From Luteimonas granuli (GTDB lineage: Bacteria > Pseudomonadota > Gammaproteobacteria > Xanthomonadales > Xanthomonadaceae): a DNA stretch of 64,000 nucleotides. The first letter of the stretch is position 1. The number at the start of each line of letters is the position of its first letter. The notes beneath the pieces were generated by a model. That model was given only the letters and a program-made list of their open reading frames with translations. It made no database searches and was not told the origin of the DNA. The stretch spans positions 682,001 to 746,000 of the forward strand of contig NZ_CP042218.1 of NCBI RefSeq assembly GCF_007795095.1, written 5' to 3'. Position numbers and translations under genes: made by a program. Positions 5,067 to 43,314 of this stretch are shown one piece after another.

Positions 5067-5071
5067 GCCGG

Positions 5072-8700: not shown

Positions 8701-9276
8701 GAGCTGCTGGGCGAGGACCAGAGCGGGCAGATGGCCGAAGTCGGCTTCAGCCTCTATACCGAACTGCTGGAGCGCGCGGTGCGCAGCATCAAGCGCGGCG
8801 AGCTGCCCGACGTCGATGGCACCGCCTCCCGCGGCGCCGAAGTGGAGCTGCACGTCCCGGCGCTGATCCCCGAGGACTACCTGCCCGACGTGCACACGCG
8901 GCTGACGCTGTACAAGCGCATCAGCTCCGCGCGCGACGCCGACGCCCTGCGTGAGCTGCAGGTGGAAATGATCGACCGCTTCGGCCTGCTGCCCGACCCG
9001 ACGAAGTTCCTGTTCGCCATCGCCGAGCTGAAGCTGCAGGCCACCGGGCTCGGCATCCGCAAGATCGACCTCGGCGCGAACGGCGGGCGGATCCAGTTCC
9101 TCGAGAAGCCCTCGGTCGATCCGATGGCCATCATCCGGCTGGTCCAGGGGCAACCGAAGAGCTATCGGATGGACGGCCCCGACAGGCTCCGGCTCACGCT
9201 CGAACTGCCCACGCCGGAGGAGCGCCTCCAGGCCGTCCGCGGGCTGCTGGCGATGCTGGCGCCTGCGCGGGCATAG
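5760..9276 (+). pseudogene. mfd: Transcription-repair coupling factor Mfd, interrupted by a one-base insertion
   Basis: Mfd displaces stalled RNA polymerase and recruits UvrA to the lesion. Frame 1 (from ATG 5760, MTDQPTSGKT) carries the UvrB-homology region, the RNAP-interaction domain (IVHEDHGVGRYRGLV) and the Walker A GDVGFGKTE near residue 652. It runs to the Walker B region DEEQRF, where it leaves frame. Translation resumes in the next frame at GVRQKEALKALRANVHLLTL and runs through the helicase and TRG motifs to 9276. Removing T8034 restores DEEQRFGVRQKEALK exactly, so this is a single inserted base in the DEEQ motif. If real, the cell lacks Mfd helicase activity; if an error, the protein is about 1,170 residues, normal for the family. 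An ATG at 5736 is a weaker alternative start. Confidence 0.92.
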
Positions 9277-9313
9277 CTCACGCCCGCTGCCTCGCCTCTT
9301 CCCCGAAGCCGCC

Positions 9314-9979: not shown

Positions 9980-9983
9980 GGCC

Positions 9984-10373
9984 TCAGTCCCGCAGCGCGG
10001 CCGCGGCATGGACCAGCCAGCCGAGGATCATCAGGGATCCACCCACCGGCGCCAGCCGCGTCGACAGGTCGAGGAAATGCGCCCCGGCCAGCGAGCCGGC
10101 AAACAGCAGCACGCCGGCCAGCAGCAGCCACAGCGCCCCGACCTTCAGGCGCCCCGCGGCACCTGGCGCCAGCGCGGCCAGCGCAAGACCGTGGCCGAAG
10201 GCGAAGGCCGCGGCCAGTCCCAGGCGGGCTCCGGCATCGGGCCCCGCGGCGTGCGAGGCATAGGCCGCCAGCGCCACCGCGGCCGAAGCCAACAGGGCGC
10301 CGGCCGCGGCGAGCGCCCGGCGGAAACGCGAAACGCCGCATCCGGGGATGCGGCGTTCCGTGCGGACCTTCAT
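9984..10373 (-). CDS. DUF423 family small membrane protein
   Basis: 129 residues with four hydrophobic segments (AAAGALLASAAVALAAYA, LGLAAAFAFGHGLALAAL, LWLLLAGVLLFAGSLAG, GGSLMILGWLVHAAAAL), matching the four-helix DUF423/YgdD family of unknown function. The conserved YASHA and G-x-L-M-I-L-GW patterns are visible. It sits 17 bp after the SRPBCC gene and 4 bp before alkA on the same strand, so it is probably cotranscribed with both. Confidence 0.85.
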   Translation of the reverse strand: MKVRTERRIPGCGVSRFRRALAAAGALLASAAVALAAYASHAAGPDAGARLGLAAAFAFGHGLALAALAPGAAGRLKVGALWLLLAGVLLFAGSLAGAHFLDLSTRLAPVGGSLMILGWLVHAAAALRD

Positions 10374-10390
10374 CGGACCGGCCTCGCGGC

Positions 10391-11533
10391 TCAGCGCTTG
10401 ATGTTCCAGAACACCTTGAACTGGCCGTCGGCGGTGAATGCCGCGTCGATGCCGTTGAGGTAGTACTCGTAAGGACGGCCGATGGCCTCCTCGCCCTGGG
10501 TCATCGCCCAGGCGCGGGTGGCGCTGCGGACCGCGTCGAGTTCGGCCATGTAGCCCTTGTAGTTGCCCTGGACGACGCGCGTCGGCTCGCTGCGGACGTA
10601 GGTCACCGGGCCCTGCAGCTTGATCGACGCCGGGTCGATGGGCTCGGACTGCGTCGCCGCCACCGCCGGGGCGGCGGCCGCCTCCTCACCTTCCACGGCA
10701 TCGGCCGGGGCCTGGTCGGTGCCGGTGCCCTTCGGGCGCACGGCCTGGACCACGTCGAAGGTATAGGTGTCGCGGGCGAACTCGGTGGTCACGATACGCA
10801 CCGGGCCGACCGGCTCGAGGCCGCTCTCGTCCATGGTGCGCTTGATCCACTCGACGTTGTCCTTCATCGCCTTCTTGATGACTTCGTTGTTGCGCTCGAT
10901 CGCGCCGGCATTGACCACCAGCAGGTTCTCGGCCGGAATCTCGGCGAACTCGAGGCCCGTCAGCATCGAACCCTCGACGCGGTAGTCGTAGTTCGGCACC
11001 GAGGCCAGCATGTTGGTCAGGCGGCCGAGCCCGAACTTCATGCTGTCACCGACGTTGCGGCTCACGTACAGGCCGGCATAGCGGCCCAGCAGGTCCCAGC
11101 CGTAGGTGACCTGGTAGTTCTGGGTGATCTCGATGTTGCGGCCGCCGCGACCGGTCGGCTTCAGGGTGAAGCTGGTCTGCTTGTTCCTGCCGCGCTTGTC
11201 GTCCTCGATCCGGTAGACAACGCGCGAATCCTGCTCGGACTCGATGATCTCCCAGCTGCCCTTGCCCACGCCCGACACTTCGGAGTCGTAGTCGATGCGG
11301 GCGCCGACGCCCGAATCCGGGCCCGAGCGGTTCAGGCTGACCTGGCCCAGTGCGAAGGGATGCCAGTCGTCGAAGCGCTTGAAGCTGTTGAGCGTGTCGA
11401 ACACGATCGCCAGGCGGCGATTGGTCTCGACGCTCTCGGTCAGGGAGCGGCTGGACGGCAGCATCACGCCGACGATCACGAACAGCACGGCGACGATCGC
11501 CATGGAAATCAGGAGCTCGAGCAAACGGGTCAT
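10391..11533 (-). CDS. SRPBCC (START-like) family membrane-anchored protein
   Basis: 380 residues. One N-terminal transmembrane helix (ELLISMAIVAVLFVIVGVML) is followed by a polyketide-cyclase/START-like region: LNSFKRFDDWHPFALGQVSL, then GKGSWEIIESEQDSRVVYRI. This is the pattern of SRPBCC domains that bind hydrophobic ligands. A second, GyrI-like part follows (SGLEPVGPVRIVTTEFARD). An Ala/Glu-rich linker (residues around 270-290) splits it. The gene lacks a clear function. It heads the unit with DUF423 and alkA, and its leader holds a 9-bp hairpin. Confidence 0.7.
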   Translation of the reverse strand: MTRLLELLISMAIVAVLFVIVGVMLPSSRSLTESVETNRRLAIVFDTLNSFKRFDDWHPFALGQVSLNRSGPDSGVGARIDYDSEVSGVGKGSWEIIESEQDSRVVYRIEDDKRGRNKQTSFTLKPTGRGGRNIEITQNYQVTYGWDLLGRYAGLYVSRNVGDSMKFGLGRLTNMLASVPNYDYRVEGSMLTGLEFAEIPAENLLVVNAGAIERNNEVIKKAMKDNVEWIKRTMDESGLEPVGPVRIVTTEFARDTYTFDVVQAVRPKGTGTDQAPADAVEGEEAAAAPAVAATQSEPIDPASIKLQGPVTYVRSEPTRVVQGNYKGYMAELDAVRSATRAWAMTQGEEAIGRPYEYYLNGIDAAFTADGQFKVFWNIKR

Positions 11534-14775: not shown

Positions 14776-15572
14776 TGGCGAAGGCCCAGGGCGCGCCCGC
14801 CCCCGACTTCGAGCCCGCCGGCGAACTCAAGATCGGCCAGGTCGGCATCGCCAACCTGCGCATCCGCACCCTCGACGTCGGCCGTCTGGCCGCGGAGATG
14901 CGCGACCGGGTGCAGCGGGCGCCGAAGCTTTTCGCCCGCGGCGCGGTGATCATCGACTTCGGCGGCCTGCCGGCGCTGCCGGACGCGGCCACCGCCCGCG
15001 CCCTGCTCGAGGCCCTGCGCGAGGCCGGCGCCCTGCCCGTGGCCCTGGCCTGGGGCAACAGCGAGAACGAACAGCTGGCCGTCGAACTGGGCCTGCCGCT
15101 GCTGGCCCGGTTCCGGGCCCAGTACGAATCGTCGGCGGGAGCGACGGCCCCGGCAATGCCGGACCCCGCTCCCCCACCCGCGGCGCCGGCGGCCACCGAA
15201 CCACCGCGCGCCGCCGCGGGCGCTTCCCGCCAAGGCAGCGGCGGACCTGGCCTGATCCAGGCCTCCGCGGTGCGTTCCGGCCAGCAGGTCTATGCCGAGA
15301 ACCGCGACCTCACCGTGCTGGCCGCCGTCGGCGCCGGCGCCGAAGTCATCGCCGACGGTTCCATCCACATCTACGGCGCGCTGCGCGGACGGGCCCTGGC
15401 CGGCGCGCAGGGCAACGCCCGGGCGCGTATCTTCTGCCGGGAGTTCCATGCCGAACTCGTGGCGGTGGCGGGACACTACAAGGTGCTGGAAGAGATCCCG
15501 GCGGAGCTGCGCGGCAAGGCCGTGCAGGTCTGGCTCGAGGGCGACCAGCTGAACATCGCAACGCTCGACTGA
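14772..15572 (+). CDS. minC: Septum-site determining protein MinC
   Basis: 266 residues. MinC inhibits FtsZ polymerisation away from mid-cell in complex with MinD. The N-terminal FtsZ-inhibitory domain spans about residues 15-125 (QVGIANLRIRTLDVGRLAAE, AVIIDFGGLP). A Pro/Ala-rich linker follows. The C-terminal beta-helix MinD-binding domain begins at SAVRSGQQVYAENRDLTVLA and includes ADGSIHIYGALRGRALAGA. Two ATGs occur in tandem (14772 and 14775); the first is chosen. It overlaps the GNAT gene by 4 bp and precedes minD by 23 bp. Confidence 0.95.
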   Translation: MMAKAQGAPAPDFEPAGELKIGQVGIANLRIRTLDVGRLAAEMRDRVQRAPKLFARGAVIIDFGGLPALPDAATARALLEALREAGALPVALAWGNSENEQLAVELGLPLLARFRAQYESSAGATAPAMPDPAPPPAAPAATEPPRAAAGASRQGSGGPGLIQASAVRSGQQVYAENRDLTVLAAVGAGAEVIADGSIHIYGALRGRALAGAQGNARARIFCREFHAELVAVAGHYKVLEEIPAELRGKAVQVWLEGDQLNIATLD

Positions 15573-31230: not shown

Positions 31231-33336
31231 TCACCAGCCGTAGCCCGCGCGCAGCCAGAACGTGCGGCCGGGCTCGTTGATGCGCACCGCATCGGCCGGA
31301 TAGCCGAAGTCCGCGTTGCCGGCCAGGTTGAGATGCTCGCTGTAGGCGCGGTCGAACAGGTTGTCGACGCCGGCAGTGACCTGCAGGCGCGCGTTGACCC
31401 GGTAGCCGGCGTTGAGCGCCAGGGTGGCGAAACCGGCGCTGGGCCCGATGTCCTGGCCCACCACGTTGCCGTAGCCCTCCGCCACCCGGTCCTGCCCGTC
31501 GACCACGCGCAGCAACACGCCCGCCGACCAGGTTCCGTTGTTCCAGTCGGCGCTGAAGCGGCCCTCCAGGGGCGGCATCTGCGGCAACGGCCGGCCGCTG
31601 TCCCGGTCCTCGCCGCGGGCGTAGGCCAGGCTGCCGCCGAGCTTCCAGTCCTGCGCGGGCCGGTACTCGACGCCGAGCTCGGCGCCGCGGGTCTCGGCGT
31701 CGATGTTCGTCACCCGGGACCTCTTCCCCATCATCGTGTCCATGTAGCGGAACTGGATGAAGTCTTCGACCCGGCCGGCATAGGCCGAGACCCAGGCGCT
31801 GAAGCGTTCGCCGCGGTATTGCAGCCCGACATCGAGCTGGGTGGTCTTCTCGGTGTCGAGGCCGGCGAAGGCGTTGACCGCTCCCATCGGTCCCATGTCG
31901 GCCGAGAACATCTCCCAGTAGTCGGGCATGCGCTCGGTGTGGCCGACGCCCGCGTACCAGCTCAGCCTGCGGTCGATGTCGCGCTCGTAGCGCACGAAGC
32001 CGGCCTTGAGCGTCTCCTCGCGCGACTGCCCCGCCGTCGGGTTGTGCATCGGCGGATTGCCGTGCCCGCCGGACACCGTCATGCGCTCGTCGTCGACGCC
32101 CGCGCGGTCGACGCGCGCACCCGCGATCCAGCGGCCCGCGTCGCCCTGGAACCATGTGCCTTCGGCGAACACGCCGAGGTTGTCGAAGCGCGCGTCCACC
32201 ACCCGGGGCAGGGCGAGGTAGGTGCCGCGGCCCACGCCGCCGCGGCGGCGGTGGCGGCTGTCCTGGGCGTCGATGCCGGTGGCGAGCTCGAACGTCGCGC
32301 CGCGCCAGGTGGCCACCGCGCGACCACCGCTGGTGCTGCGCTCGACGTTCGACGCCATCGGCATCGGCATCGGACCATCGGGATTGGGGTCGCGCAGGCT
32401 GTAGTTGTCCATCACGTGGTCGGCGATGTTGCGGTAGACGCTGGCCTCGAAGGCCTGCAGCGCCCCGAGCCCGAGGTCCGTCTTCTCGAAACGCAGGCTG
32501 TAGTTCGTGCGGTCGAACTGGCTGCCGTCCATGGCGCGCGTGGCGTAGCGCGCCTCGCCGTCGCCGATGCCGATGCCGAGCTCCAGCAGGGTGTCCTCGT
32601 CCGGCGTCCAGCCCAGTGCGAGATCGGCGTTCCACTTCTTCCAGGCCGAGCCGACGCGGTCGCCGTTGCCGTCGTCGTAGTCGCCCGACTCGGAACGGTT
32701 GGCGCTGATGCGGGCGTAACCCGACGGTGCGCCATACGTCGCATCCAGCACCTGGTCGTTGCGGCCCCAGCTGCCGGCGAGGGCGCTGCCTCCGACCTTC
32801 CAGTTCGGCTCGACATGGTGCTCTCGGTCGCGCTCGAAGCGCACCGTGCCCGCGGACGCGCCCGGGCCCCAGAGCACGGTCTGCGGTCCCTTGATCACCA
32901 CCAGCGCGTCATAGGTCTCCGGCGCGATGTAGGACATGGCGTTGTCCATGCGCGAAGGACAGGCGCCGGGCATGGCGCCGTCGTTGGTGAGCAGGTTCAG
33001 GCGCGAGCCGAACATGCCGCGCAGCACGGGGTCGCCGTTGCTGCCGCCGTTGCGCACCGCGCTGAAGCCGGGGATGGTCTTGAGGTAGTCGGCGCCGTCG
33101 CTGGCAGGCACCGGCTGCCGCGGCAGCTTCGGACTGGTCTCCCAGGTGAGCGCGGACACCGGGGCCGCGGCGGTCACCACCAGGGCGTCGAAATCGACGG
33201 TGCGAGTGGCGTCGGCATGGATGTGGGCCGCGTCCTCGGCGGCTTCGACCGCGAATGCGGCGGGGCTGGCCAGCGCCGCGGCGATGGCCATGAACAGGGC
33301 CGACGAACGGATCGCCGGGCAGAACGGGATCGACAT
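31231..33336 (-). CDS. oprC: TonB-dependent copper receptor (OprC/NosA type)
   Basis: 701 residues. A signal peptide (ALFMAIAAALASPAAFA) is followed by a His-containing leader, a plug (ADYLKTIPGFSAVRNGGSNG, PETYDALVVIKGPQTVLWGP) and a 22-strand barrel ending in Trp (RAGYGW). The plug loop NDGAMPGACPSRMDNAM has the Met/Cys-rich copper-binding signature of OprC, and MPMPMAS and MDTMMGKRS are further Met clusters. It imports copper across the outer membrane with TonB energy. It lies 69 bp downstream of the DUF2946 gene on the same strand and is divergent from the copper enzyme NirK, suggesting it feeds copper to it. Confidence 0.93.
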   Translation of the reverse strand: MSIPFCPAIRSSALFMAIAAALASPAAFAVEAAEDAAHIHADATRTVDFDALVVTAAAPVSALTWETSPKLPRQPVPASDGADYLKTIPGFSAVRNGGSNGDPVLRGMFGSRLNLLTNDGAMPGACPSRMDNAMSYIAPETYDALVVIKGPQTVLWGPGASAGTVRFERDREHHVEPNWKVGGSALAGSWGRNDQVLDATYGAPSGYARISANRSESGDYDDGNGDRVGSAWKKWNADLALGWTPDEDTLLELGIGIGDGEARYATRAMDGSQFDRTNYSLRFEKTDLGLGALQAFEASVYRNIADHVMDNYSLRDPNPDGPMPMPMASNVERSTSGGRAVATWRGATFELATGIDAQDSRHRRRGGVGRGTYLALPRVVDARFDNLGVFAEGTWFQGDAGRWIAGARVDRAGVDDERMTVSGGHGNPPMHNPTAGQSREETLKAGFVRYERDIDRRLSWYAGVGHTERMPDYWEMFSADMGPMGAVNAFAGLDTEKTTQLDVGLQYRGERFSAWVSAYAGRVEDFIQFRYMDTMMGKRSRVTNIDAETRGAELGVEYRPAQDWKLGGSLAYARGEDRDSGRPLPQMPPLEGRFSADWNNGTWSAGVLLRVVDGQDRVAEGYGNVVGQDIGPSAGFATLALNAGYRVNARLQVTAGVDNLFDRAYSEHLNLAGNADFGYPADAVRINEPGRTFWLRAGYGW

Positions 33337-33405
33337 GGTGGAACTCCATGGGAGGGATATCGTGGGGTTTGCGCCGCGGGCGTACCCGCGCGGCGTGGTG
33401 TCGGC

Positions 33406-33789
33406 TCAGCCCCGCCGGGGCGGCCCGCGCGATCCCAGTCCACTGGGATGCCACCAGCGCAGGCGCGGTGCCTGCGTCGCGATCGCCGGCGCTGCTGCGC
33501 GCGGCACGTGCACGATATCGAACGCCACGCCCGCGGCGACGGCCATCGAGGCCAGCAAGGGGCAATAGTCGCACTCGGGATCACCGATGGCCGGGCGTCG
33601 TTCGCCGTCCCCGCCGCCACCATGCTGCGCGTGCGATGCATGGCCATGCTGCGCATGCGTTTCCTGATGGTGGATCACATCGGCCACGGCGGCGTGCGCC
33701 ACCCGTCCGACCGTGGGCACCATGACCAGCAGCAGCGCGGCGGCCAGGCCGATCCGCGACATCCAGCGATTGAAGGCACTGTGCTTCAT
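33406..33789 (-). CDS. DUF2946-type small secreted protein of a copper locus
   Basis: 127 residues. An N-terminal hydrophobic segment (IGLAAALLLVMVPTVGRVAHA) is a signal peptide or anchor. A His/Gln-rich stretch follows (HHQETHAQHGHASHAQHG), then the DUF2946 core DPECDYCPLLASM with a CxxC pair. The His-rich region and CxxC suggest metal binding. It precedes the copper receptor on the same strand and is likely cotranscribed. An internal ATG at 33762 (MSRIGLAA) is an alternative start that would leave about 31 nt of leader from the proposed promoter. Confidence 0.8.
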   Translation of the reverse strand: MKHSAFNRWMSRIGLAAALLLVMVPTVGRVAHAAVADVIHHQETHAQHGHASHAQHGGGGDGERRPAIGDPECDYCPLLASMAVAAGVAFDIVHVPRAAAPAIATQAPRLRWWHPSGLGSRGPPRRG

Positions 33790-33799
33790 GGTGCAGCGG

Positions 33800-33805
33800 A
33801 TTATC
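33800..33805 (-). promoter_or_regulatory. Candidate -10 for the DUF2946/copper-receptor unit
   Basis: Reading leftwards, GATAAT (33805-33800) predicts a start near 33793. The Crp/Fnr box at 33829-33842 is then centred about 42.5 bp upstream, the usual class II activator position. Confidence 0.5.
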
Positions 33806-33828
33806 GCGGATCACCTGCGGAAAGACGG

Positions 33829-33842
33829 ATGACACAGGTCAA
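33829..33842. promoter_or_regulatory. Crp/Fnr-family box A (ATGAC-N4-GTCAA)
   Basis: ATGACACAGGTCAA fits the Fnr/Dnr-type palindrome (TTGAY-N4-RTCAA) with one mismatch. It is positioned to activate leftward transcription of the DUF2946 gene and copper receptor, or to act as a distal site for nirK. Confidence 0.6.
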
Positions 33843-33875
33843 GCGCAGTCGATTCCCGTACGCGAATGTACGTGC

Positions 33876-33889
33876 TTGACTCAAGTCAT
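33876..33889. promoter_or_regulatory. Crp/Fnr-family box B (TTGAC-N4-GTCAT) for nirK
   Basis: TTGACTCAAGTCAT is a near-perfect Fnr/Dnr-type palindrome, 47 bp from box A. A -10-like TATCGT at 33913-33918 puts the start near 33925, with the box centred about 42 bp upstream. This is typical for oxygen- or NO-responsive activation of denitrification genes. Confidence 0.65.
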
Positions 33890-33988
33890 GGAGACGCGCG
33901 CGGGCGCATCGGTATCGTCCGCTCCAACGGCGGAAGAGCCCCCGCCCCGATCCTTCCAGATTTCATTCAACCGCTGAGGAAACATCCC

Positions 33989-35365
33989 ATGAGGAACCTG
34001 GTACTGCTGTTCGCACTTGCCACCGCCGGTGGCTTCGTCCCGTTCGAGGCCGCCGCCCAGGGCCAGGCTTCGGTCGACATGATCGCCGACGTCACCTTCA
34101 GCCTGCGCACCGAAATCGCCAACGGGAAGATGGTGTTCATCGGCAACGCGGGCCCGATCAAGGACGTGGTCAATCCGGAACTGCGCGTGGCCGAGGGCGC
34201 GGTGGTGGCCATCACCGTCACCAACAACGACGGCGCCATGCACGACATCGCGGTCCCCGAGTTCGGCGCCCAGTCCGACCAGCTCGTCGGCGTCGGCGCA
34301 GCGACCACGATCGTGTTCCGCGCCACCAAGGCTGGCACCTTCGAGTACATCTGCACCATCCCCGGCCACAAGCTCGCCGGCATGGCCGGCAACCTGATCG
34401 TCGGCGACGTGAAGAAGGAAGTGAGCACGGCGATCAACGTGGCCAAGAACCCGGCCGAGGTCGGCAAGCCGGTTGGTGACCGCGGCCCGCAGCACGTCAC
34501 CTACGACCTGCTGACCACCGAGGTCGAGGGCCGCCTGGACGACGGCAGCACCTACCGCTACTGGACCTTCGACAACACGGTCCCGGGCCCGTTCCTGCGC
34601 ATCCGCCAGGGCGACACGGTGACGATCAACCTGAAGAACGCCGAGAACAGCGTCAACATCCATTCGGTCGACTTCCACTCCGTGACCGGCCCCGGCGGCG
34701 GCGCGGCGGTGACCCAGGTGCGCCCGGGCGAGACCAAGAGCTTCACCTTCAAGGCGCTTCACCCCGGCCTGTTCGTGTACCACTGCGCCACGCCGATGAT
34801 CGCCCACCACATCTCCAACGGCATGTACGGGATGATCCTGGTCGAGCCCGAGGGCGGCCTGCCCAAGGTCGACAAGGAGTACTACGTCATGCAGGGCGAG
34901 CTGTACACGGCGCAGAAGCATGGTTCGCGCGGCCTGCAGGAGTTCTCGGTCGACAAGCTGCTCGACGAGAAGCCCGAGCACCTGATGTTCAACGGCTCGA
35001 TGGACGCGCTCACCAAGACCTTCGACATGACGGCCAACGTGGGCGAGGAAGTGCGCATCTTCTTCGGCGTCGGCGGTCCGAACCTGATCTCGAGCTTCCA
35101 CCTGATCGGCGAGGTGTTCGACCGGGTCTACGACCTGGCCTCCTTCACCAGCCCGCCGCTGAAGGACGTGCAGACCACGCTGGTGCCGCCGGGCGGCGCG
35201 ACCATGGTCGAGTTCAAGGTCGACTACCCGGGCAAGTACATCCTGGTCGACCATGCGCTGTCCCGCGCCGAGAAGGGCCTGACCGGCATCCTCACGGTGC
35301 ACGGCAAGGCGGACGCGGCGATCTTCAGCAGCAAGGAAGCGATCGACGCCTCGTCCGGCCACTGA
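33989..35365 (+). CDS. nirK: Copper-containing nitrite reductase NirK with an extra N-terminal cupredoxin domain
   Basis: 458 residues, periplasmic; reduces nitrite to nitric oxide. After a signal peptide (MRNLVLLFALATAGGFVPFEAAA) comes an additional cupredoxin domain with a type 1 copper site: H85, C122, H127 and M132. The NirK core follows with type 1 ligands H225, C266, H274, M279; type 2 ligands H230, H265, H422; and catalytic D228 and H371. SSFHLIGEVFD places the core in the AniA-like class. The N-terminal domain probably relays electrons, as in three-domain NirKs. It is followed by a strong terminator and preceded by a Crp/Fnr box. No nor or nos genes are adjacent. Confidence 0.95.
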   Translation: MRNLVLLFALATAGGFVPFEAAAQGQASVDMIADVTFSLRTEIANGKMVFIGNAGPIKDVVNPELRVAEGAVVAITVTNNDGAMHDIAVPEFGAQSDQLVGVGAATTIVFRATKAGTFEYICTIPGHKLAGMAGNLIVGDVKKEVSTAINVAKNPAEVGKPVGDRGPQHVTYDLLTTEVEGRLDDGSTYRYWTFDNTVPGPFLRIRQGDTVTINLKNAENSVNIHSVDFHSVTGPGGGAAVTQVRPGETKSFTFKALHPGLFVYHCATPMIAHHISNGMYGMILVEPEGGLPKVDKEYYVMQGELYTAQKHGSRGLQEFSVDKLLDEKPEHLMFNGSMDALTKTFDMTANVGEEVRIFFGVGGPNLISSFHLIGEVFDRVYDLASFTSPPLKDVQTTLVPPGGATMVEFKVDYPGKYILVDHALSRAEKGLTGILTVHGKADAAIFSSKEAIDASSGH

Positions 35366-35393
35366 CCGCAGGCCGTCCACTCTCCCACGTGCA

Positions 35394-35422
35394 GGGCCCC
35401 GCTTCGGCGGGGCCCTTTTTTT
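35394..35422 (+). terminator. Rho-independent terminator after nirK
   Basis: Perfect 9-bp stem GGGCCCCGC / GCGGGGCCC with a TTCG tetraloop, followed by seven Ts, 29 bp after the nirK stop. A textbook intrinsic terminator. Confidence 0.95.
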
Positions 35423-35505
35423 CTCGGGCGAGTCAAGCCCCCGCTTGCACACAAAGGTCATGCCGCAGTCACGCCGCGTGAGACGAAGCAGCGGACAATG
35501 ACCGC

Positions 35506-36225
35506 ATGCACCAGATGATCGAACTCCACCCCAGGCCCGACGCCCTCAGCGGCCTCGGCCTGCCCGCCATCCCCTATCCCGTCGCCCTCCAGACTTTCCA
35601 GGCCGCCGTCGCCAACGACGGCGAACTGCCGCTGGCCGACATGCTGCACGGCCTGCAGCTGCGCGCCGCCCGTCCGGGGGCGGACTGGCAGCGCATGGAG
35701 CCGGCCATGGCACGGCTGGCCGAGCTCCTGGCGCCCGACGACCCGCGCGAATCCATCATCGCCCAGGGCGAGGACTGGTGGCTTGAGCTCGGACCGGTCG
35801 AGCCGGAGGAGGCCGACGCCCTCGCCCTGCAGCGCGGGGACGCCCTGCTCGCCGCCATCGCCCCGCGCGAGGACGGCCGCCTGCGCGTGGCGGCGTATCG
35901 GCCGCTGGACGGCCGCGCCCTCGAGATCCTGCTGGCGCTTGCCAGCGTGCCCGGCGCGTCGGCGGAGGCCACGGACCCGCGGACCTGCTGGGAGCGTGCG
36001 CAGGAAGCGGCTTCGGGCACCGGTCCCCATGCTTCCGCCCTTGATGGCCTGGCGCGGCTGTCGCGCGGCCAGCCGGCCGACGCGGACCTGGCTCCGCGCA
36101 AACCGGCCTGCGTGGTCGCGGAAATCGGCACCTTCCACATGCTCCACCGCGCGCAGGGGGCTGAACGCCGCATCGCGCGGCCCTGGGCCAGGCGTCCGGC
36201 AACGCCGCGCAGAGCGATGGCGTAG
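35506..36225 (+). CDS. Hypothetical protein
   Basis: 239 residues with strong GC3 coding bias from the ATG at 35506. No domain recognised. The protein is acidic and Ala/Leu-rich, probably helical, with no signal peptide or membrane helix; it has a recognisable GEDWWLELGPVEPEEADALA stretch. The last 35 residues are Arg-rich and of lower coding quality, so the C-terminus may be imprecise. It starts 84 bp after the nirK terminator and precedes the KaiC-like operon by 40 bp; whether it belongs to that operon is undecided. An ATG at 35515 is an alternative start. Confidence 0.6.
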   Translation: MHQMIELHPRPDALSGLGLPAIPYPVALQTFQAAVANDGELPLADMLHGLQLRAARPGADWQRMEPAMARLAELLAPDDPRESIIAQGEDWWLELGPVEPEEADALALQRGDALLAAIAPREDGRLRVAAYRPLDGRALEILLALASVPGASAEATDPRTCWERAQEAASGTGPHASALDGLARLSRGQPADADLAPRKPACVVAEIGTFHMLHRAQGAERRIARPWARRPATPRRAMA

Positions 36226-36264
36226 GATGCGGATGACCCGCATGCGCGGGGCATCAGGCGGCAC

Positions 36265-36696
36265 ATGCAAGCCCAAGTGCACCAAGTGGACAGCGTGCTG
36301 CGCGACATCGCGGCCGAAGGGCGCGGCACGGAAGCCATCTGCGCCCGGACGGTCTCGCTGTGGACCGGAGTGGCGCACGCCCTCGTTCCCATCATCGGCC
36401 AGCGCGGCATGTCCGCGCTGTACGAGCGCGCCCTGCACCTCGCGTCCGCGCAGCACAAGTGGCTGGAGCAGGCGCGTGGCGCGGATGCCGACGACGGACT
36501 GCCCGGCTTTTCCCTGCTCGCTGCCGCCGCCTCCAACCAGAGGCAGGACGACGCCATCGCGGCGATCGCCATCCTCTTCGAAACCTTCGACCGCCTGCTG
36601 GTCACCTTGATTGGCGCATCGCTCACCGAACGCTTGCTGCAGCCGGTCTGGGACGTCCCGTCCGCCAGCCCTACCCGACAGGACACTGCCCCATGA
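36265..36696 (+). CDS. Small helical protein coupled to a KaiC-like ATPase, function unknown
   Basis: 143 residues, predicted all-alpha, without membrane helix. No family recognised. Its stop overlaps the KaiC-like start in ATGA, so the two are translated together. Features include RTVSLWTGVAHALVPIIGQR, YERALHLASAQHKWLEQ and IAILFETFDRLLVTLIGASL. No His-phosphotransfer consensus or Cys pair was seen. The tight linkage suggests a regulator or partner of the ATPase, but this is inference. Confidence 0.65.
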   Translation: MQAQVHQVDSVLRDIAAEGRGTEAICARTVSLWTGVAHALVPIIGQRGMSALYERALHLASAQHKWLEQARGADADDGLPGFSLLAAAASNQRQDDAIAAIAILFETFDRLLVTLIGASLTERLLQPVWDVPSASPTRQDTAP

Positions 36697-38174
36697 GCAC
36701 CAGGAACGCGACCATCCGGCGCCTGCCCACCGGCGTCAAGGGCCTCGACGACATTCTTGGCGGCGGCATCCCGGAGTTCTCCTTCAACCTCATCGCAGGC
36801 TCCCCGGGCGCCGGAAAGACCACCCTCGCGCACCAGATGATGTTCGCGATGGCGACGCCGGAGCGGCCGGCGCTGTATTTCACCGTGCTCGGCGAGCCGG
36901 CGCTGAAGATGCTGCGCTACCAGCAGCAGTTCGAGTTCTTCGATCCCGCGCGCATCAACTCCTCGATCCGCTTCGTCAACCTCGCCGACGACACCGTCAA
37001 CGGCAACCTGGACAAGGTGCTCGCGCGCATCGTGGACGCGGTGCGCACCCATGCACCCGGCTTCGTGTTCGTGGATTCGTTCCGCTCGGTGATCCTCGCC
37101 AGCCAGGGCGCGGGCGACACCTTCCTGACGCTGCAGGAGTTCATCCAGCGCCTGGGCATCCTGCTGACGGGCTGGGAGGCGACGACCTTCCTGCTGGGCG
37201 AGTACTTCAGCGACGCCGATCCCAACCCCATCTTCACCGTGGCCGACGGCCTGATCTGGCTGAGCCAGAGCGCGCAGCGCAACTCGGTGGTGCGCAAGAT
37301 GGAAATCGTGAAGATGCGCGGGCAGCCGACCCTGCCGGGGCTGCACAGCTTCCGCATCACCGGGGCCGGGCTCCGGGTGTTCGCGCCGCCGCGCACCACG
37401 CCGGCGGCCGTGCCGGGCGCGGTCCCGCCGCTGCAGGACCGGCGCAGCGTCGGCATCCCGGGACTGGACGAGATGATGGGCGGCGGGTTGCCGCGCGGCT
37501 ATTCGCTGCTGGTGGCAGGGCCGTCGGGCTCGGGCAAGACCATCCTCGCCTCGGCCTTCCTTGCCGAAGGCGCGCGCCGCGGCGAGACCGGCGTGATCGC
37601 CGCCTTCGAGCAGCGCTCGCGGCAATCGCGCGGCCCGCTGATCGCCGGCCTGATCGAAGCCGACCGCATCGGCGTCATCGACACCATGGGGCCGACGCTG
37701 TCGGTGGACGAGATCGCCGTGCTCCTGATCGAGGAGGTGCAGCGGCTGAAGGCGACGCGCGTGGTCATCGATTCGCTGTCGGGCTTCGAACTCGCGCTCG
37801 CGCCGACCTTCCGCGACGACTTCCGCGAATCGCTGTCGCGCCTGGTTTCGGCGCTGGCGGACACCGGCGCCACGGTGCTGATGACGTCCGAGCTCGAGGA
37901 CCGCTACGACGAGCTGAGCTTCAGCCCCTACGGCACCGCCTTCCTCACCGACGCGATCATCGTCCAGCGCTACATCGAAGTGGACAGCCGGCTCCAGCGG
38001 GTGCTTGCCGTGGTCAAGGTCCGTGGCAGCGCGCACTCGCACGATCTGCGCCTGTTCGACATCGACGACGACGGCCTGCAGCTGGGCGAACGCCTCGCAG
38101 GCCATGAGGGCCTGCTGGGTGGCCACCCCATGCGCGTGACCAGGCCCGCGCCGGCGGGCGCGGCGCCGGGATGA
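36693..38174 (+). CDS. KaiC-like double-domain RecA-fold ATPase
   Basis: 493 residues in two tandem KaiC domains. Domain I has the KaiC start TGVKGLDDILGGGIPEFS, Walker A GSPGAGKT (37-44) and Walker B FVFVD near 124-128. Domain II restarts at SVGIPGLDEMMGGGLPRGYS with Walker A GPSGSGKT (277-284) and Walker B RVVID near 356-360. Domain II keeps a Glu in AAFEQRSRQ; domain I has only LGEPA where KaiC has a catalytic Glu pair. Thus ATPase roles may differ. No kaiA or kaiB is present, so this is a non-clock KaiC homologue acting in signalling. It is followed after 25 bp by a GGDEF-kinase hybrid. Confidence 0.92.
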   Translation: MSTRNATIRRLPTGVKGLDDILGGGIPEFSFNLIAGSPGAGKTTLAHQMMFAMATPERPALYFTVLGEPALKMLRYQQQFEFFDPARINSSIRFVNLADDTVNGNLDKVLARIVDAVRTHAPGFVFVDSFRSVILASQGAGDTFLTLQEFIQRLGILLTGWEATTFLLGEYFSDADPNPIFTVADGLIWLSQSAQRNSVVRKMEIVKMRGQPTLPGLHSFRITGAGLRVFAPPRTTPAAVPGAVPPLQDRRSVGIPGLDEMMGGGLPRGYSLLVAGPSGSGKTILASAFLAEGARRGETGVIAAFEQRSRQSRGPLIAGLIEADRIGVIDTMGPTLSVDEIAVLLIEEVQRLKATRVVIDSLSGFELALAPTFRDDFRESLSRLVSALADTGATVLMTSELEDRYDELSFSPYGTAFLTDAIIVQRYIEVDSRLQRVLAVVKVRGSAHSHDLRLFDIDDDGLQLGERLAGHEGLLGGHPMRVTRPAPAGAAPG

Positions 38175-38199
38175 ACGCGCCGCCGCAGGTGCGCTTGAC

Positions 38200-39816
38200 G
38201 TGACCGGGCCGGAGCCCGGTTCGCGGCGCGCGGCGGCGACGCAGTCGCTGGCCACGCTCGAGGCCCACGCGGTACAGCTGCGCGCGGAGGTCGCCGGCCT
38301 GCAGAAGGTGCTCGCCACCCTGCGCGATCGCGCACCGCCGAGCAGTGGCAATGACCTGCTCGAAGCCAACGAGCAGCTGGTGCTGGCGGCCCTGCGGGCA
38401 CAGGCCGTCGCCGAGGCGGCCGAGCGCCACCGCGACGAGGCCGCGCGCGCTGGCGAACGCGATCCGCTGACCGACCTTCCCAACCGGACCTCGATGCTCG
38501 AACGCCTGCACCTGGCCCTGGCCTCCGCGCAGCGGCGGCAGGCGCAGCTGGCGGTGCTGTTCATCGACGTCGACCGCTTCAAGGAGATCAACGACAGCTA
38601 CGGCCACCCCGTCGGCGACCAGGTCCTGCAGTCCATGGCGCGCCGGCTGGAATCGAACCTGCGGGAGACCGACACCGTGGGGCGCTTCGGTGGCGAGGAA
38701 TTCCTCGTGCTGCTCGAAGACCTGGCATCGACAGACGACGTGCCGGGCATCGTGGAGCACCTGCTGGATGTCATGGCCAGGCCGGAAACGATCGCCGGCC
38801 ATGTGATCGAGCTGTCGGCCAGTCTGGGGATCGCGTTCTATCCGGACGATGCCACCGATGAGGCCGGCCTCATCGCGTGTTCGGATGCCGCGATGTATCG
38901 CGCCAAGCGACGGGGGCCGGGGGGCTACGAGTTCTGCCACGCGATCGAGCGCGGAGCCGATGGCCGGCCGATGGCTGCGCCCCTGGCCCCGGATGATGGC
39001 GAGGACCAGCGGCTGCCCGGGCCTGCCGGTACCCGGGCGCGGCAGGCCGCCCTGCAGGAAGCCAACAGCGCGCTGGTGGTCTCCGCCCTGCATGCGCAGG
39101 CACAGGAAACACGCGCACTGGAAGCGCACGCACGGGCGCTGGGATCGATGGCTGCGGCCGCGCACGAGCTGCGCAATCCCCTGACCCCCATCCGGATCGC
39201 CGCCGGCATGCTCGGCGAAGCGCGCGACGACCTGGTGCGCTTCACCCGGCTGCGCGACATCATCGAAGAGGAAGTCCTGCACATCGCGCGCCTGGTCGAC
39301 GATCTTGTCGACGGGTCGCGCGTGGTCAGTGGCAAGCTCAGCCTGCAGCGTGAAGAGGCCGCGCTCGCCCGCGTGCTGGAAGCCGCAACGGCGAGCTGCC
39401 GCCCGGCGATGGAGTCGCGGCGGCAGCAGCTGGTCGTGGAGCTGCCGCCCGACGATGCCATGCCGCTCACCGGAGACCACACCCGCCTGGTGCAGGTGTT
39501 CACCAACCTGCTCGACAACGCCTCGAAGTACACCCCGGAGGGAGGGAGCGTCCGCCTGGTCGCGGTGCGCTCGCCGGACGCGATCACGGTGAGCGTCCAC
39601 GACACCGGCATCGGGATCCCCGCCGACGCCCTGCGGCGCATCTTCGACATGTTCGTGCAGGACCGCACCGCGGCGGCGCTGCGCCCCGGCGGACTCGGCA
39701 TCGGCCTGGCGATCGTGCGCGAGCTGGTGGAGGCGCACGGCGGAACGGTCGTGGGCAGCAGCGACGGCCCGGGCCTGGGGAGCAGCTTCGTGGTCACGCT
39801 TCCGGTCGCTGCCTGA
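38200..39816 (+). CDS. Fusion of diguanylate cyclase (GGDEF) and histidine kinase
   Basis: 538 residues from GTG 38200, no membrane helix. Order: helical N-terminus; GGDEF domain with active site GGEEF (164-168) and an intact inhibitory RxxD (155-158); linker; HisKA with phospho-His322 in AAAHELRNPLTPI; and HATPase with NLLDNASKYT (436-445), DTGIGIP and GLGIGLAIV. A helical segment LLEANEQLVLAALRAQ (53-68) recurs as LQEANSALVVSALHAQ (286-301), one copy ahead of each catalytic unit. It appears able both to make c-di-GMP and to phosphorylate a partner. No response regulator is adjacent. It is the last gene of the KaiC-like operon. Confidence 0.92.
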   Translation: MTGPEPGSRRAAATQSLATLEAHAVQLRAEVAGLQKVLATLRDRAPPSSGNDLLEANEQLVLAALRAQAVAEAAERHRDEAARAGERDPLTDLPNRTSMLERLHLALASAQRRQAQLAVLFIDVDRFKEINDSYGHPVGDQVLQSMARRLESNLRETDTVGRFGGEEFLVLLEDLASTDDVPGIVEHLLDVMARPETIAGHVIELSASLGIAFYPDDATDEAGLIACSDAAMYRAKRRGPGGYEFCHAIERGADGRPMAAPLAPDDGEDQRLPGPAGTRARQAALQEANSALVVSALHAQAQETRALEAHARALGSMAAAAHELRNPLTPIRIAAGMLGEARDDLVRFTRLRDIIEEEVLHIARLVDDLVDGSRVVSGKLSLQREEAALARVLEAATASCRPAMESRRQQLVVELPPDDAMPLTGDHTRLVQVFTNLLDNASKYTPEGGSVRLVAVRSPDAITVSVHDTGIGIPADALRRIFDMFVQDRTAAALRPGGLGIGLAIVRELVEAHGGTVVGSSDGPGLGSSFVVTLPVAA

Positions 39817-39839
39817 GGGCAGGCCGGTGGGTGGGGGGC

Positions 39840-41270
39840 TCAGTTCTGCGGCCGCGCCTCCACCTTCGGCTCGGCCACTTCGCGCCCGGCTTCGGCGCGG
39901 CCCGCCATGTCGGCGCCCGCGTCGGGCGCGAGCCGGCGCATCTGCCGCATCGAGGCCAGCGAGATCAGGCCCACAGTGAGGAAGGCGAAGGTGAAGTTGA
40001 TCGCGGCATTGCCGGGCTGGCCGGTCAGCCGCCCCGCCGCGCTGAGCGCGAATCCGCCGATGGTCACGCCCAGGGCCAGCGACAGCTGCTGCGCCATCGC
40101 CGCCAGGCTGCTGGCCTGGCTCATCCGCGCCTGGTCGATGTCGGCATAGGCCACGGCGTTGATGCTGGTGAACTGCAGCGAGCGGAAGAAGCCGCTGGCC
40201 AGCAGCACGCCCACCATCAGCGGATAGGGCGTGTCGGCGCGGAACAGGCCGAAGCCGCAGAGCATCAGCGACGCCACCAGCCCGTTCCAGACCAGCACCG
40301 GCCGGAAGCCGAAACGATGGATGATGCGCGGCGCGACCGCCTTCATCACCATCGCGCCGGCAGTGGACGTGAAGGTGACCAGCCCCGATTCCAACGGATC
40401 GAGGCCGAAGGCCATCTGCAGCATCAGTGGCAGCAGGAAGGGCGTGGCACCGGTGCCGATGCGGAACAGCGAACCGCCGAGCACGCCCACCCGGAACGTC
40501 GGCACCCGGAACAGGTCCAGCCGCAGCAGCGGATGCGGGTGCCGGCGCGCATGCCACACATAGGCGGCGATCAGGGCGCCACCGGCCAGGATGCAGCCGG
40601 CGATCACGGCCCTGGGCACCAGCGCGGAACCGATCGCCGCCAGCCCCGACATCGCCAGTACCAGGCCGCCGGCGGACAACAGGAAGCCCCGCCAGTCCAG
40701 CGGCCCCACCGGCTGCTTCAGCATCGGGATATGCCGGTAGGCCAGCCAGATGCCCAGCAGGCCCATCGGGATGTTGATGAGGAAGATCCAGCGCCAGTCC
40801 GCGTAGGTCGTGATCGCGCCGCCCAGCACCGGCCCCAGCATCGGCCCCAGCAGCGCCGGGATCGTGAGCCAGCTCAGCGCGCGCACCAGCTCGGACTTCT
40901 CCACGCTGCGCAGCAGCACCAACCGCCCCACCGGCACCATCATCGCCCCGCCTATGCCCTGCACGAAGCGGCCGACCACCAGCTGGCCGAGCCCGTCGCT
41001 GGCGGCGCAGCCCAGCGACCCCAGGAGGAACACGCCGATGGCGGACATGAACACCGGCTTCGCACCGAAGCGGTCCGCGACCCAGCCGCTGACGGGAATG
41101 AACACCGCCAGCGCCAGCATGTAGGTGGTGAGCGCGAGCTTGAGCGCCACCGGCTCCACGCCCAGGTCCGCCGCGATCTGCGGCAGCGAGGTGGAGATCG
41201 CCGTCGAGTCCATGTTCTCGATGAACAGCGCGGTGGCGATGATCAGGGGGATGAGGCGGTGCGGGGGCAA
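39840..41270 (-). CDS. DHA2-family MFS drug exporter
   Basis: 476 residues with about 14 hydrophobic helices. The start PLIIATALFIENMDSTAIST is the EmrB/DHA2 motif D1 (xxxD-S-T), followed by PVSGWVADRFGAKPVF (motif A) and GPMLGPVLGGAITTYADWRW (motif C). It probably exports hydrophobic toxicants with proton antiport. No EmrA-type membrane-fusion protein is adjacent. It is convergent with the GGDEF-kinase gene, 23 bp apart. The C-terminal 25 residues are charged and cytoplasmic. Confidence 0.88.
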   Translation of the reverse strand: MPPHRLIPLIIATALFIENMDSTAISTSLPQIAADLGVEPVALKLALTTYMLALAVFIPVSGWVADRFGAKPVFMSAIGVFLLGSLGCAASDGLGQLVVGRFVQGIGGAMMVPVGRLVLLRSVEKSELVRALSWLTIPALLGPMLGPVLGGAITTYADWRWIFLINIPMGLLGIWLAYRHIPMLKQPVGPLDWRGFLLSAGGLVLAMSGLAAIGSALVPRAVIAGCILAGGALIAAYVWHARRHPHPLLRLDLFRVPTFRVGVLGGSLFRIGTGATPFLLPLMLQMAFGLDPLESGLVTFTSTAGAMVMKAVAPRIIHRFGFRPVLVWNGLVASLMLCGFGLFRADTPYPLMVGVLLASGFFRSLQFTSINAVAYADIDQARMSQASSLAAMAQQLSLALGVTIGGFALSAAGRLTGQPGNAAINFTFAFLTVGLISLASMRQMRRLAPDAGADMAGRAEAGREVAEPKVEARPQN

Positions 41271-41346
41271 GGCGGCTCGCGTGCGGCGGACAGCGGAGCA
41301 TTGTCGCCCTTCCGGCGGGCGGGCGGCGTGAGCGGCCGACCCGGGA

Positions 41347-42018
41347 TCAACCGGAATGGTCCCGCGGACCCTGCGCCTCCATCATCCTTGCGAAACGGTC
41401 GAATACCGACGGATCGCTCTTGATGCCCCGCTCGCCGTGCATGATCTCCATCGCTTCCGCATGCGTGCGCCGCGGCTGGTACGGGCGCTGCGAGGTCATG
41501 GCATCGTAGCTGTCGACCACGCCGATGATCCGCGCGCCCAAGGGGATGTCCTCGCCCCCGAGCCCGTCGGGATAGCCGCTGCCGTCGAACCATTCGTGGT
41601 GGTGGCGCACCAACCTGGCGAGCATCGCGGCATCCGCGCGATCCAGCTGTTCGCAGATGCGCGCGCCGGCACCGGCGTGGCGCCTCATGATCTCGAGTTC
41701 GGAGGCATCCAGCCTGCCGGGCTTCAGCAGGACATGATCGGGGATGCCGATCTTGCCGATGTCGTGCAGGCGCGCGGCGGCGCGCAGGGTGCCGATTTCC
41801 GCCTCGTCCGTGCCGCAGCAGCGCGCCAGCGCGACGCAGAGGAGTTCGACCCGGCCACCGTGCTCCTGCGTATACGGATCGCGCAGGTACAGCGCCGTGC
41901 TCAGCGCACCGCGCGGACCTGAAGAACCGCCGATCATCCCGGCCTCCCGCACTTCATCCCGCGGGCGCACGCGAACAGCCCCCTGCGTCATTGATCGAAC
42001 ATGTGTTTCCATCGACAT
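41347..42018 (-). CDS. HD-GYP domain phosphodiesterase
   Basis: About 223 residues, essentially a stand-alone HD-GYP domain. The metal and signature motifs are present: RDPYTQEHGGRVELL, LHDIGKIGIPDHVLLKPG, RHHHEWFDGSGYPDGL (the GYP part) and VVDSYDAMTSQRPYQP. HD-GYP enzymes hydrolyse c-di-GMP. There is no receiver or sensor domain. ATG at 42018 is chosen; 42012 also fits. It is divergent from the spermidine-synthase-like gene and close to a diguanylate cyclase-type kinase, so it could counter its product, which is inference. Confidence 0.9.
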   Translation of the reverse strand: MSMETHVRSMTQGAVRVRPRDEVREAGMIGGSSGPRGALSTALYLRDPYTQEHGGRVELLCVALARCCGTDEAEIGTLRAAARLHDIGKIGIPDHVLLKPGRLDASELEIMRRHAGAGARICEQLDRADAAMLARLVRHHHEWFDGSGYPDGLGGEDIPLGARIIGVVDSYDAMTSQRPYQPRRTHAEAMEIMHGERGIKSDPSVFDRFARMMEAQGPRDHSG

Positions 42019-42140
42019 CGGCGGCCCGCTTCCCAGGCGATCCGCCTGCGAGAAATATAACCGCGTTGCGAGCGATGCGGACTGACCGGAATCAATACGC
42101 TGCGGGCCGTGACTTGAAGCCAACGGCGCGATTGCCGAGC

Positions 42141-42932
42141 ATGGGTACCCACATCCATCATCAGGAACCCAGATTGCACGCATTCAACGGCCTCAGCGCC
42201 GGTTTCCGCCCGCATCCCGCACCATCCCTTCCGGACGCGACCTCCCTGCTCGCCGACGAGCACACCGGCCTCCAGCACGCCGTCGTCAACCGCCATCCCC
42301 GCTATGGCGCGCAGCTCTTCCTCGACGACGACCTCCAGATCTCCGAATCCGACACCGCCTACGGCGTGGCCATGGCCAGCCCGTTGCTGGCCCTGCGTCG
42401 CCTCGAGCGCGTCGCCATCCTCGGCGGGGGCGATGGCGGCGTGCTCAACGAACTGATCCGCACGCTCGAACCGCTGGACGCTCTGCCATCCGAGCTGACC
42501 ATGATCGAGATCGACCCGCGGGTGATGGAGCTCTCGCGCGAACACCTGCCGGTGCTGTGCGGCGATGCCTTCGACAGCCCGCATGCCCACGTCGTCACCG
42601 GCGACGCCTTCGCCTGGATCGCCAAGGCCCGCGACCTCGACGCGGTCATCTACGACCTGACCATGGACCCGGTGCGCGAAGGCCAGACGCGCGCCGACTT
42701 CATCACCCGGATCATCGGCCACATCGCCCGCGCCCTGCGCCCCGGCGGCATGCTGAGCATGCAGTGCTGCGGCCACGGCCGGGAGGACGCCGCCGACCGC
42801 GCCACCCGCCGCGAAGTCCTGCCGCTGATCCGCGCGGCGGTGGACGAACACTTCAACGAACGCTGCGAGCAGGACGTGCTGGTGCCATCGTACCGCGACC
42901 TCTGGACGTTCCTGAGCGCGCGCAAGGCCTGA
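42141..42932 (+). CDS. Spermidine synthase-like aminopropyltransferase
   Basis: 263 residues. The SAM-type Rossmann core is clear: RVAILGGGDGGVLNELIRTL (glycine loop), MIEIDPRVMELSREHLP and the catalytic-site-like DAVIYDLTMDPVREG. The preceding YGAQLFLDDDLQISESDTAY resembles the SpeE substrate lid. The usual DxxDP catalytic loop is changed to YDLTMDP and the QxxE/Y-H-E motif is weak, so the substrate may differ from putrescine. ATG at 42141 is chosen because coding character begins there. No speD/speA is nearby. Confidence 0.82.
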   Translation: MGTHIHHQEPRLHAFNGLSAGFRPHPAPSLPDATSLLADEHTGLQHAVVNRHPRYGAQLFLDDDLQISESDTAYGVAMASPLLALRRLERVAILGGGDGGVLNELIRTLEPLDALPSELTMIEIDPRVMELSREHLPVLCGDAFDSPHAHVVTGDAFAWIAKARDLDAVIYDLTMDPVREGQTRADFITRIIGHIARALRPGGMLSMQCCGHGREDAADRATRREVLPLIRAAVDEHFNERCEQDVLVPSYRDLWTFLSARKA

Positions 42933-42969
42933 TCTCCGCGCGGACACGCATCCGCGACCGCTGGCGCGC

Positions 42970-43314
42970 TCAGATCCGCGCCAGCGCGTCGCGCAGCGGC
43001 TCCAGGTCGGCATCGGACACCGGGCGCACCACGCGCGCCAGCTCCATCCCCGAGCGCATCACCACCAGCGTCGGCCAGAGCCTGACGGCCAGCGAGCGCC
43101 CCAACGGCCGCCCCCGCCCGTCCTCGACCTTGAGGTGGGTCACGTTGCGGCTGCCGGCCAGCAGTCGGCGGATGCTCGCCTGCGCCGCCTGGCAGTGGCC
43201 ACACCAGGGGGCGCCGAACTCGAGCAGGAGCGTGCCCTCCATCGCGTCGACGTCGTCGCGGGCGGGCTCGGTGGCGAGATAGTCGGATGCGTAAGCGGAC
43301 ATCTCCGGCTCCAT
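42970..43314 (-). CDS. Thioredoxin-family protein
   Basis: About 114 residues. The active site W-C-G-H-C in LLLEFGAPWCGHCQAAQ and the cis-Pro loop LWPTLVVMR give a complete thioredoxin fold. No signal peptide is seen, so it acts in the cytoplasm. The ATG at 43314 follows the neighbouring gene by 14 bp; 43302 also fits. It is probably cotranscribed with the small conserved gene upstream. Confidence 0.87.
   Translation of the reverse strand: MEPEMSAYASDYLATEPARDDVDAMEGTLLLEFGAPWCGHCQAAQASIRRLLAGSRNVTHLKVEDGRGRPLGRSLAVRLWPTLVVMRSGMELARVVRPVSDADLEPLRDALARI

Follow-up and report, generated by a model that had tools for sequence, protein, structure and literature searches.

To our knowledge, a function has been assigned to few of the KaiC proteins found outside cyanobacteria. 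A paper from 2011 (PMC3164672) distinguished, in the accessible parts of its text, three contexts of KaiC genes, described KaiC genes adjoining kinase and GGDEF genes, and gave 'AF' as one site type in its third (black) group. The same parts consider an hourglass for KaiCs with two phosphorylation sites, those without sites being thought unlikely to keep a cycle. In Rhodobacter sphaeroides, according to the available portion of PMC10076222, a KaiBC hourglass without KaiA is driven by the ATP-to-ADP ratio, and its KaiC carries an extension of about 50 amino acids (aa).

Here we analyzed a three-gene set in a 64-kb stretch of the Luteimonas granuli genome, which is one 2.9-Mb contig; this stretch is called the window, and all window coordinates refer to it. 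The genes code, in order, for a 143-aa helical protein (SMALL), a KaiC-like ATPase, and an output protein, in the window a fusion of a diguanylate cyclase (GGDEF) and a histidine kinase (HK). This triad is retained across many genera while the catalytic halves of the output come and go. We consider it a likely case of a conserved signaling module in which KaiC acts as an ATP-state switch controlling the cyclase and/or the kinase, not as a phosphorylation clock. The three open reading frames (ORFs) proposed in the first-pass annotation, which was made from the letters of the window, were borne out, with the stop codon of SMALL overlapped over 4 bp by the ATG of the KaiC-like gene and a gap of 25 bp between the KaiC stop and the output gene (Table 1).

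Linkage of the three genes

A scan of the genome collection with a KaiC alignment yielded at least 447 confirmed relatives, of which the best 80, close relatives only (66 to 74% identity), were retained. The triad was present in the order SMALL-KaiC-output in 75 of these 80 loci, over 21 named genera and nine named families, with 33 loci from Pseudomonas. Linkage across genomes, which the first-pass annotation had named as a test of the set, was thus found. SMALL stood upstream of KaiC in 79 of the 80 loci, and the two genes overlapped by their called starts in 74 of the 78 pairs measured. Five loci were incomplete: L061 had neither SMALL nor output, the output gene of L122 was only begun at a contig end, L101 had a kinase-like piece alone downstream, L115 had SMALL and KaiC with no output gene, and L119 had SMALL and KaiC with an opposite-strand kinase only. 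Two entries, L106 and L021, represent one locus.

Closer to the window, this KaiC occurred at 63% identity or more in 11 of 101 genomes, the window's included; one more match, at 31%, was another KaiC. In the window's genus and family, SMALL, KaiC and output stood in order at all 11 loci, among mostly different neighbors, the small gene of L022 being recovered by a frame search. Occurrence within the genus was patchy (10 of 52 genomes after dropping two weak matches) with the set intact, which points to transfer or retention of the set as a whole.

Wider samples gave a similar arrangement. Among 369 genomes of the class, seven had SMALL and nine had a KaiC of at least 50% identity, the window's genome counting in both, and SMALL lay beside KaiC in seven of the nine (in G274 by a deeper profile only). 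G117 had a Crp-like gene in SMALL's place and G410 a KaiC piece only, without SMALL. In the phylum sample of 398 genomes SMALL was found in five, one of them a false antisense match, and the three real occurrences besides the window adjoined KaiC. None of the eight control loci with other KaiCs (L165 to L172, 28 to 35% identity) had SMALL at E <= 0.1.

This KaiC was also present in 4 of 72,556 plasmid records at E 1e-60; phage records gave no match at E 1e-30. Three Caballeronia plasmids carry KaiC and SMALL together, and the output in the one inspected is annotated as a diguanylate cyclase. An operon on a Paracoccus plasmid codes for a SMALL-like protein, KaiC (50%), an HWE kinase, and a response regulator directly downstream of the kinase, and it suggests that the pathway includes such a regulator.

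Several loci carry other genes close by. Crp-like genes adjoin the set in L114 (9187-9942), L124 (3989-4729), L123 (9252-9971) and L127 (8915-9637) and lie near it in 23 loci, a count from which no association is claimed. At locus L020, G051 encodes another KaiC, of the ordinary type, beside a 563-aa protein bearing a receiver-like stretch near its C terminus (2067-5262 and 8925-10435), and has a single receiver gene (Response_reg) and a kinase-like gene just upstream of SMALL.

The linkage bears on two alternatives to the switch. SMALL might itself be the sensor and act directly on the output. KaiC would then be a relay, either chaperone-like or energy-coupling, by which the complex is assembled or reset. 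We judge this possible though rather unlikely. It would account for a natural fusion in L128 (6546-7640), found in G255, the seventh genome with SMALL in the class sample: there a single frame, 364 aa long when counted from its first ATG, joins SMALL, the adaptor described below and GGDEF. This frame follows two Crp-like genes and has no KaiC adjacent, the other KaiC of G255 lying elsewhere and being 33% identical. L061 (5184-5915) and L162 (6533-7294), in which a Crp-like (HTH_Crp_2) gene stands directly upstream of this KaiC and SMALL is absent, point the same way. The position of SMALL directly before KaiC in all but one of the 80 loci, mostly with overlapping frames, argues against it, as do L115 and L119, where SMALL stays by KaiC and the output gene is absent. 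Those two loci would in turn favor the second alternative, that the genes are mere cotranscribed neighbors, the output working alone and the KaiC pair having an unrelated (e.g., RecA/RadA-like) job; contact among the proteins is, moreover, predicted from linkage. The 75 triads over nine named families and the patchy genus distribution with an intact set make this explanation highly improbable.

The KaiC-like ATPase and its helical partner

The KaiC-like protein matched the KaiC family (PF06745) in two stretches (E 8.7e-65), in agreement with the two-domain ATPase of the first-pass annotation. A Walker A motif, GxxxxGK[TS], was found in the second domain (CII) of all 91 relatives and in the first (CI) of all 86 of these whose patterns were printed. 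CII retains the first catalytic Glu (FEQ, E306). CI reads [LMFI]GEP in all 91 sequences at the site of the Glu pair of canonical KaiC; one Glu is left, and the member of the pair that it matches varies with gap placement. The notion that both CI catalytic glutamates are lost was withdrawn as alignment-dependent.

The positions of S431 and T432 of Synechococcus elongatus correspond, by alignment to KaiC chains of the PDB, to A416 and F417 in the window's KaiC. This pair reads AF in 90 of the 91 close relatives and AS in one. More distant members of the clade have S-F (L163 and L174, the Paracoccus relative) or C-F (L158), and the first phosphosite of the 11 other KaiCs compared is Ser in 10 and Thr in one. 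The tail beyond the GGRP region is 5 to 29 residues long in all but one of the 91 close relatives. Neither of two clock equivalog models was matched at its cut-off (NF006799, 202.8 versus 408 bits; TIGR02655, 129.4 versus 546.25 bits). KaiB (PF07689) was unmatched in the whole 2.9-Mb genome, with a positive S. elongatus control, and the absence of kaiB stated earlier therefore stands. Three other places of the genome matched the KaiC family more weakly and are probably RecA/RadA-type genes. A 36-row tree placed the KaiC subfamily on one side of a branch with a support of 97 (SH-aLRT, an approximate likelihood ratio test), subject to a long-branch warning for the other KaiCs. This anatomy fits ATP binding and a nucleotide-driven shape change, not a phosphorylation cycle.

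A true timer, i.e., a KaiBC-type hourglass or circadian oscillator driving kinase and cyclase, is very unlikely and was rejected: its two KaiC domains with Walker A and the kinases known as KaiC output (SasA; the accessible parts of PMC3164672 and the reference list of PMC5520375) speak for it, and the replacement of both phosphosites, the lack of KaiB in the genome, and a tail that is short next to the extension of the R. sphaeroides protein (PMC10076222, available portion) speak against it. Of the ATP-driven timer or switch suggested in the first-pass annotation, a switch between ATP and ADP states fits these features better.

SMALL had been called uncharacterized and helical, and both descriptions hold. 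Its AlphaFold2 model is all-helical, with a predicted local distance difference test score (pLDDT) of 86.8, and no significant Pfam or NCBIfam family was matched. A DinB-type fold was rejected, its sole hint being a DinB_2 match below the cut-off (E 0.044); Pfam gave scattered weak matches for 70 members of the SMALL family, with DinB_2 in 3 of the 70 (among the matches listed, 25 of 28 families). Foldseek against the PDB returned 91 matches at E <= 10, none of them at E <= 0.001 (best 1.9). The sequence search of the PDB returned nine matches at E <= 10, designed helical proteins by name (best E 1.7e-6, no single stretch passing), which we took as reflecting helix composition. A relative of SMALL is encoded on a Polaromonas plasmid (L175, 4501-4854) that gave no KaiC match at the limit used. 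Three matches were dropped as false: those in G003 and G034 cover residues 20-69 only, inside 711-aa frames, and that in G502 overlaps a gene called on the opposite strand.

The modular output gene and the locus in the window

The output protein of the window matched GGDEF (E 2.7e-47), HisKA (1.3e-10), HATPase_c (9.3e-26) and, weakly, HATPase_c_2, confirming the fusion of cyclase and kinase, and the motifs of both enzymes are intact. No KaiB-like or receiver-like N-terminal domain was detected by Pfam. Its AlphaFold2 model (pLDDT 86.5; predicted template modeling score, pTM, 0.49) has two helices at the N terminus, and the two copies of an adaptor motif lie in helices 50-85 and 275-338, each of which runs to a catalytic part.

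Profiles of the N terminus, the GGDEF part and the kinase part, built from the first 11 loci, were applied to 87 downstream genes. The products comprised 44 with N terminus and HK, 35 with N terminus, GGDEF and HK, six with N terminus and GGDEF, one with GGDEF (L107) and one unrelated (L061); L057, listed with the GGDEF form, is truncated by a contig end, and L106 duplicates L021. The third gene thus comes in three interchangeable forms, of which the GGDEF-HK fusion is one, a refinement of the first-pass description; the kinase-only form is the commonest among the loci, many of which are from Pseudomonas. Pfam applied to 68 output rows, including two unrelated ones (L061 and a distant LysR-type gene of L101), found HATPase_c in 59, HisKA in 58 and GGDEF in 40, and found no PAS, GAF or receiver family.

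The forms have been exchanged repeatedly. A quickly built tree of 71 KaiCs, from which 20 of the 91 (near-copies, truncated or duplicate) had been removed beforehand and in which five rows are unlabeled, required 12 architecture changes, versus a mean of 25.7 for shuffled labels; architecture is therefore clustered but often switched. The starred branches alone (16 of 68 inner ones) force six changes for GGDEF+HK, five for HK, and four for GGDEF. The closest relative of the window, L019 (87% KaiC identity), lacks the GGDEF part, and L020 (86%) retains it. In L028 (2852-4252), near-repeats containing AMAAHERQHSENKDA stand in GGDEF's place between N terminus and kinase.

Both catalytic halves are mostly intact. 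GG[DE]EF and the RxxD I-site occur in 37 of 42 GGDEF-bearing proteins; the fused proteins L059, L117, L118 and L126 have a degenerate site but retain the I-site, and L057 is truncated ahead of the motif. Of the 79 kinase-bearing proteins, 73 have the phospho-acceptor His; in the others it is replaced, by Asn in L114 and L124, Ala in L121, Gln in L123 and L127, and Tyr in L089. One degenerate half was found in nine of the 35 fused proteins (four GGDEF, five kinase) and two in none, about 0.6 being expected by chance, so that a nonrandom absence of double loss is suggestive only.

The adaptor is a 20-residue motif, scored with a matrix from first-copy windows only (64 sequences), with the 99th percentile for shuffled sequences as the threshold and L106 left out. 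One copy was found in seven of seven GGDEF-only proteins (L057 being cut); two copies were present in all 34 GGDEF+HK proteins and in 42 of the 44 HK-only proteins. Since HK-only proteins have two copies and GGDEF-only proteins one, the former resemble fused proteins minus GGDEF. GGDEF-only proteins likewise correspond to fused proteins minus the second adaptor and the kinase, and loss would be the direction of change in both cases.

Upstream of the set in the window, a terminator-like hairpin is the likely border of the transcription unit, as judged from its sequence, and a 239-aa ORF may be cotranscribed with the three genes. The first-pass annotation began its locus at the start of this ORF, which it left unmentioned. 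As a fourth component the ORF was rejected: it has relatives in nine of 52 genus genomes, only three of which (the window's, G013 and G051) have this KaiC, and it therefore lies outside the conserved set. In G013 and G051 other genes separate its relative from the three-gene set.

Table 1 Features of the three-gene locus in the window
Feature	Coordinates	Strand	Description	Basis
Terminator-like hairpin	35393..35416	+	After the nitrite reductase-like gene	Consensus match only
239-aa ORF	35506..36225	+	Family unnamed; 39 bp upstream of SMALL gene	
SMALL gene (gene 1)	36265..36696	+	143 aa; unnamed family	Pfam/NCBIfam scans, AlphaFold2 model
KaiC-like ATPase gene (gene 2)	36693..38174	+	493 aa; two RecA-type domains, CI and CII	Pfam
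Output gene (gene 3)	38200..39816	+	538 aa; GTG start; soluble GGDEF + HisKA + HATPase_c	Pfam
N-terminal helix of output	38215..38331	+	Residues 6-44	AlphaFold2
Adaptor motif, copy 1	38356..38415	+	Residues 53-72, LLEANEQLVLAALRAQAVAE; in helix leading to GGDEF	Motif search, AlphaFold2
GGDEF (diguanylate cyclase) domain	38458..38916	+	Residues 87-239	Pfam
I-site	38662..38673	+	RETD (RxxD), five residues ahead of active-site motif	Sequence
Active-site motif	38689..38703	+	GGEEF	Sequence
Adaptor motif, copy 2	39052..39111	+	Residues 285-304; in long helix running to HisKA	Motif search, AlphaFold2
HisKA phospho-acceptor domain (PF00512)	39151..39324	+	Residues 318-375, AHELRNPL	Pfam
HATPase_c domain (PF02518)	39472..39810	+	Residues 425-537	Pfam

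No receiver domain was found by Pfam in the 14 neighborhood gene products, to which this search was limited, in line with the earlier remark that a response regulator is absent nearby, and no Rfam match was found within 33000-43000. The plus-strand gene at 33989-35365 codes for a copper-containing nitrite reductase-like protein with a cupredoxin stretch and adjoins opposite-strand TonB receptor and DUF2946 genes. On the minus strand, the product of 41347-42183 has HD-type phosphohydrolase domains (HD_5 and HD by Pfam) with an HD-GYP-like motif by eye. It is a candidate phosphodiesterase of cyclic di-GMP (c-di-GMP), encoded 1.5 kb from the GGDEF protein behind an MFS transporter. A tRNA-like gene with a two-base anticodon called by ARAGORN (15179-15268, minus strand) is probably a false call.

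The proposed switch and its relation to known systems

According to the switch that we favor, the KaiC-like protein would form an ATP-loaded ring whose shape changes with its nucleotide state. SMALL would set or read the state of this ring, taking the place held by KaiA and KaiB in clocks. The N-terminal helix of the output and the adaptor helices leading to each catalytic domain would transmit the shape change, and the diguanylate cyclase and/or the kinase would be turned on or off. The outputs would be c-di-GMP and the phosphorylation of a response regulator encoded elsewhere. Of the link to phosphorylation and c-di-GMP offered in the first-pass annotation, the two enzymatic ends stand, both motifs being intact, and a timer of known type at its head is not supported. 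More tentatively, we propose that the set stands for a branch of its own within KaiC biology, with a ring free of phosphosites that works by nucleotide state alone, a dedicated helical partner unrelated to KaiA and KaiB that regulates the ring, and plug-in catalytic heads (cyclase, kinase or both) that read it out, each attached by its own copy of the short adaptor helix.

Several observations weigh against this switch. L115 and L119 have no output gene, L101 has a kinase-like piece, and L061 has neither SMALL nor output; conversely, SMALL occurs without this KaiC alongside in the L128 fusion and on the Polaromonas plasmid. Only eight of 79 loci have a receiver gene no more than four genes away from KaiC. 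Four of 42 GGDEF domains are degenerate, and six of 79 kinases lack the His. The count of modular exchanges was obtained on a tree in which 30 of 68 inner branches are poorly supported. Independent origin or spread of the adaptor motif, which is helix-rich, is also possible. Finally, we infer control of the output by KaiC and SMALL, contact among the three proteins being a prediction from the linkage of their genes.

If the more tentative proposal of a separate KaiC branch is right, the set would tie the energy state of the cell to c-di-GMP and two-component signaling in Pseudomonas, Ramlibacter, Rhodanobacter, Luteimonas and their kin. The set supplies this KaiC subfamily with an unnamed partner that is nearly always present and with an output whose enzyme activity can be read, so that the role of KaiC in the absence of a clock can be tested directly, with the natural cyclase-only and kinase-only variants as built-in controls.

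GGDEF-HK and HK proteins with signaling helices have catalytic domains plus a helix leading in, as does the output of the triad. The triad differs in that its 68 output rows contain no PAS, GAF or receiver domain. The role of sensor appears to fall to the KaiC pair, which is supplied in trans.

The triad shares a double-domain KaiC and a kinase output with the cyanobacterial KaiABC-SasA system. Unlike that system, the window's genome has no KaiB, the phosphosites are lost, and no KaiB-like domain is found in the output by Pfam. With the R. sphaeroides KaiBC system, as presented in the available portion of PMC10076222, it shares the apparent operation of KaiC without KaiA; here KaiB, the long C-terminal extension and the Ser-Ser phosphosites are missing as well.

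Nearest are the black group of PMC3164672 and the KaiC-Nt_HK pair of Ramlibacter tataouinensis, which, in the accessible text, likewise combine a KaiC lacking KaiA and KaiB with adjoining kinase or GGDEF genes, AF being one of the site types listed for the black group. That text does not mention SMALL, the adaptor-based output, the fusion of GGDEF and HK, or the exchange of halves. The Ramlibacter Nt_HK described there has a receiver-like/KaiB-like N-terminal (RtaNt) domain where the window's output has two helices. Literature searches, with most subscription papers outside their reach, found no description of the SMALL-KaiC-output triad. The first-pass remark that no described system was known with exactly this set is therefore supported for the three genes, whereas the idea of the neighborhood is already present in the accessible part of PMC3164672. 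The module is real, conserved and apparently undescribed, and represents a variant of the KaiC-plus-kinase theme, not a new kind of system.

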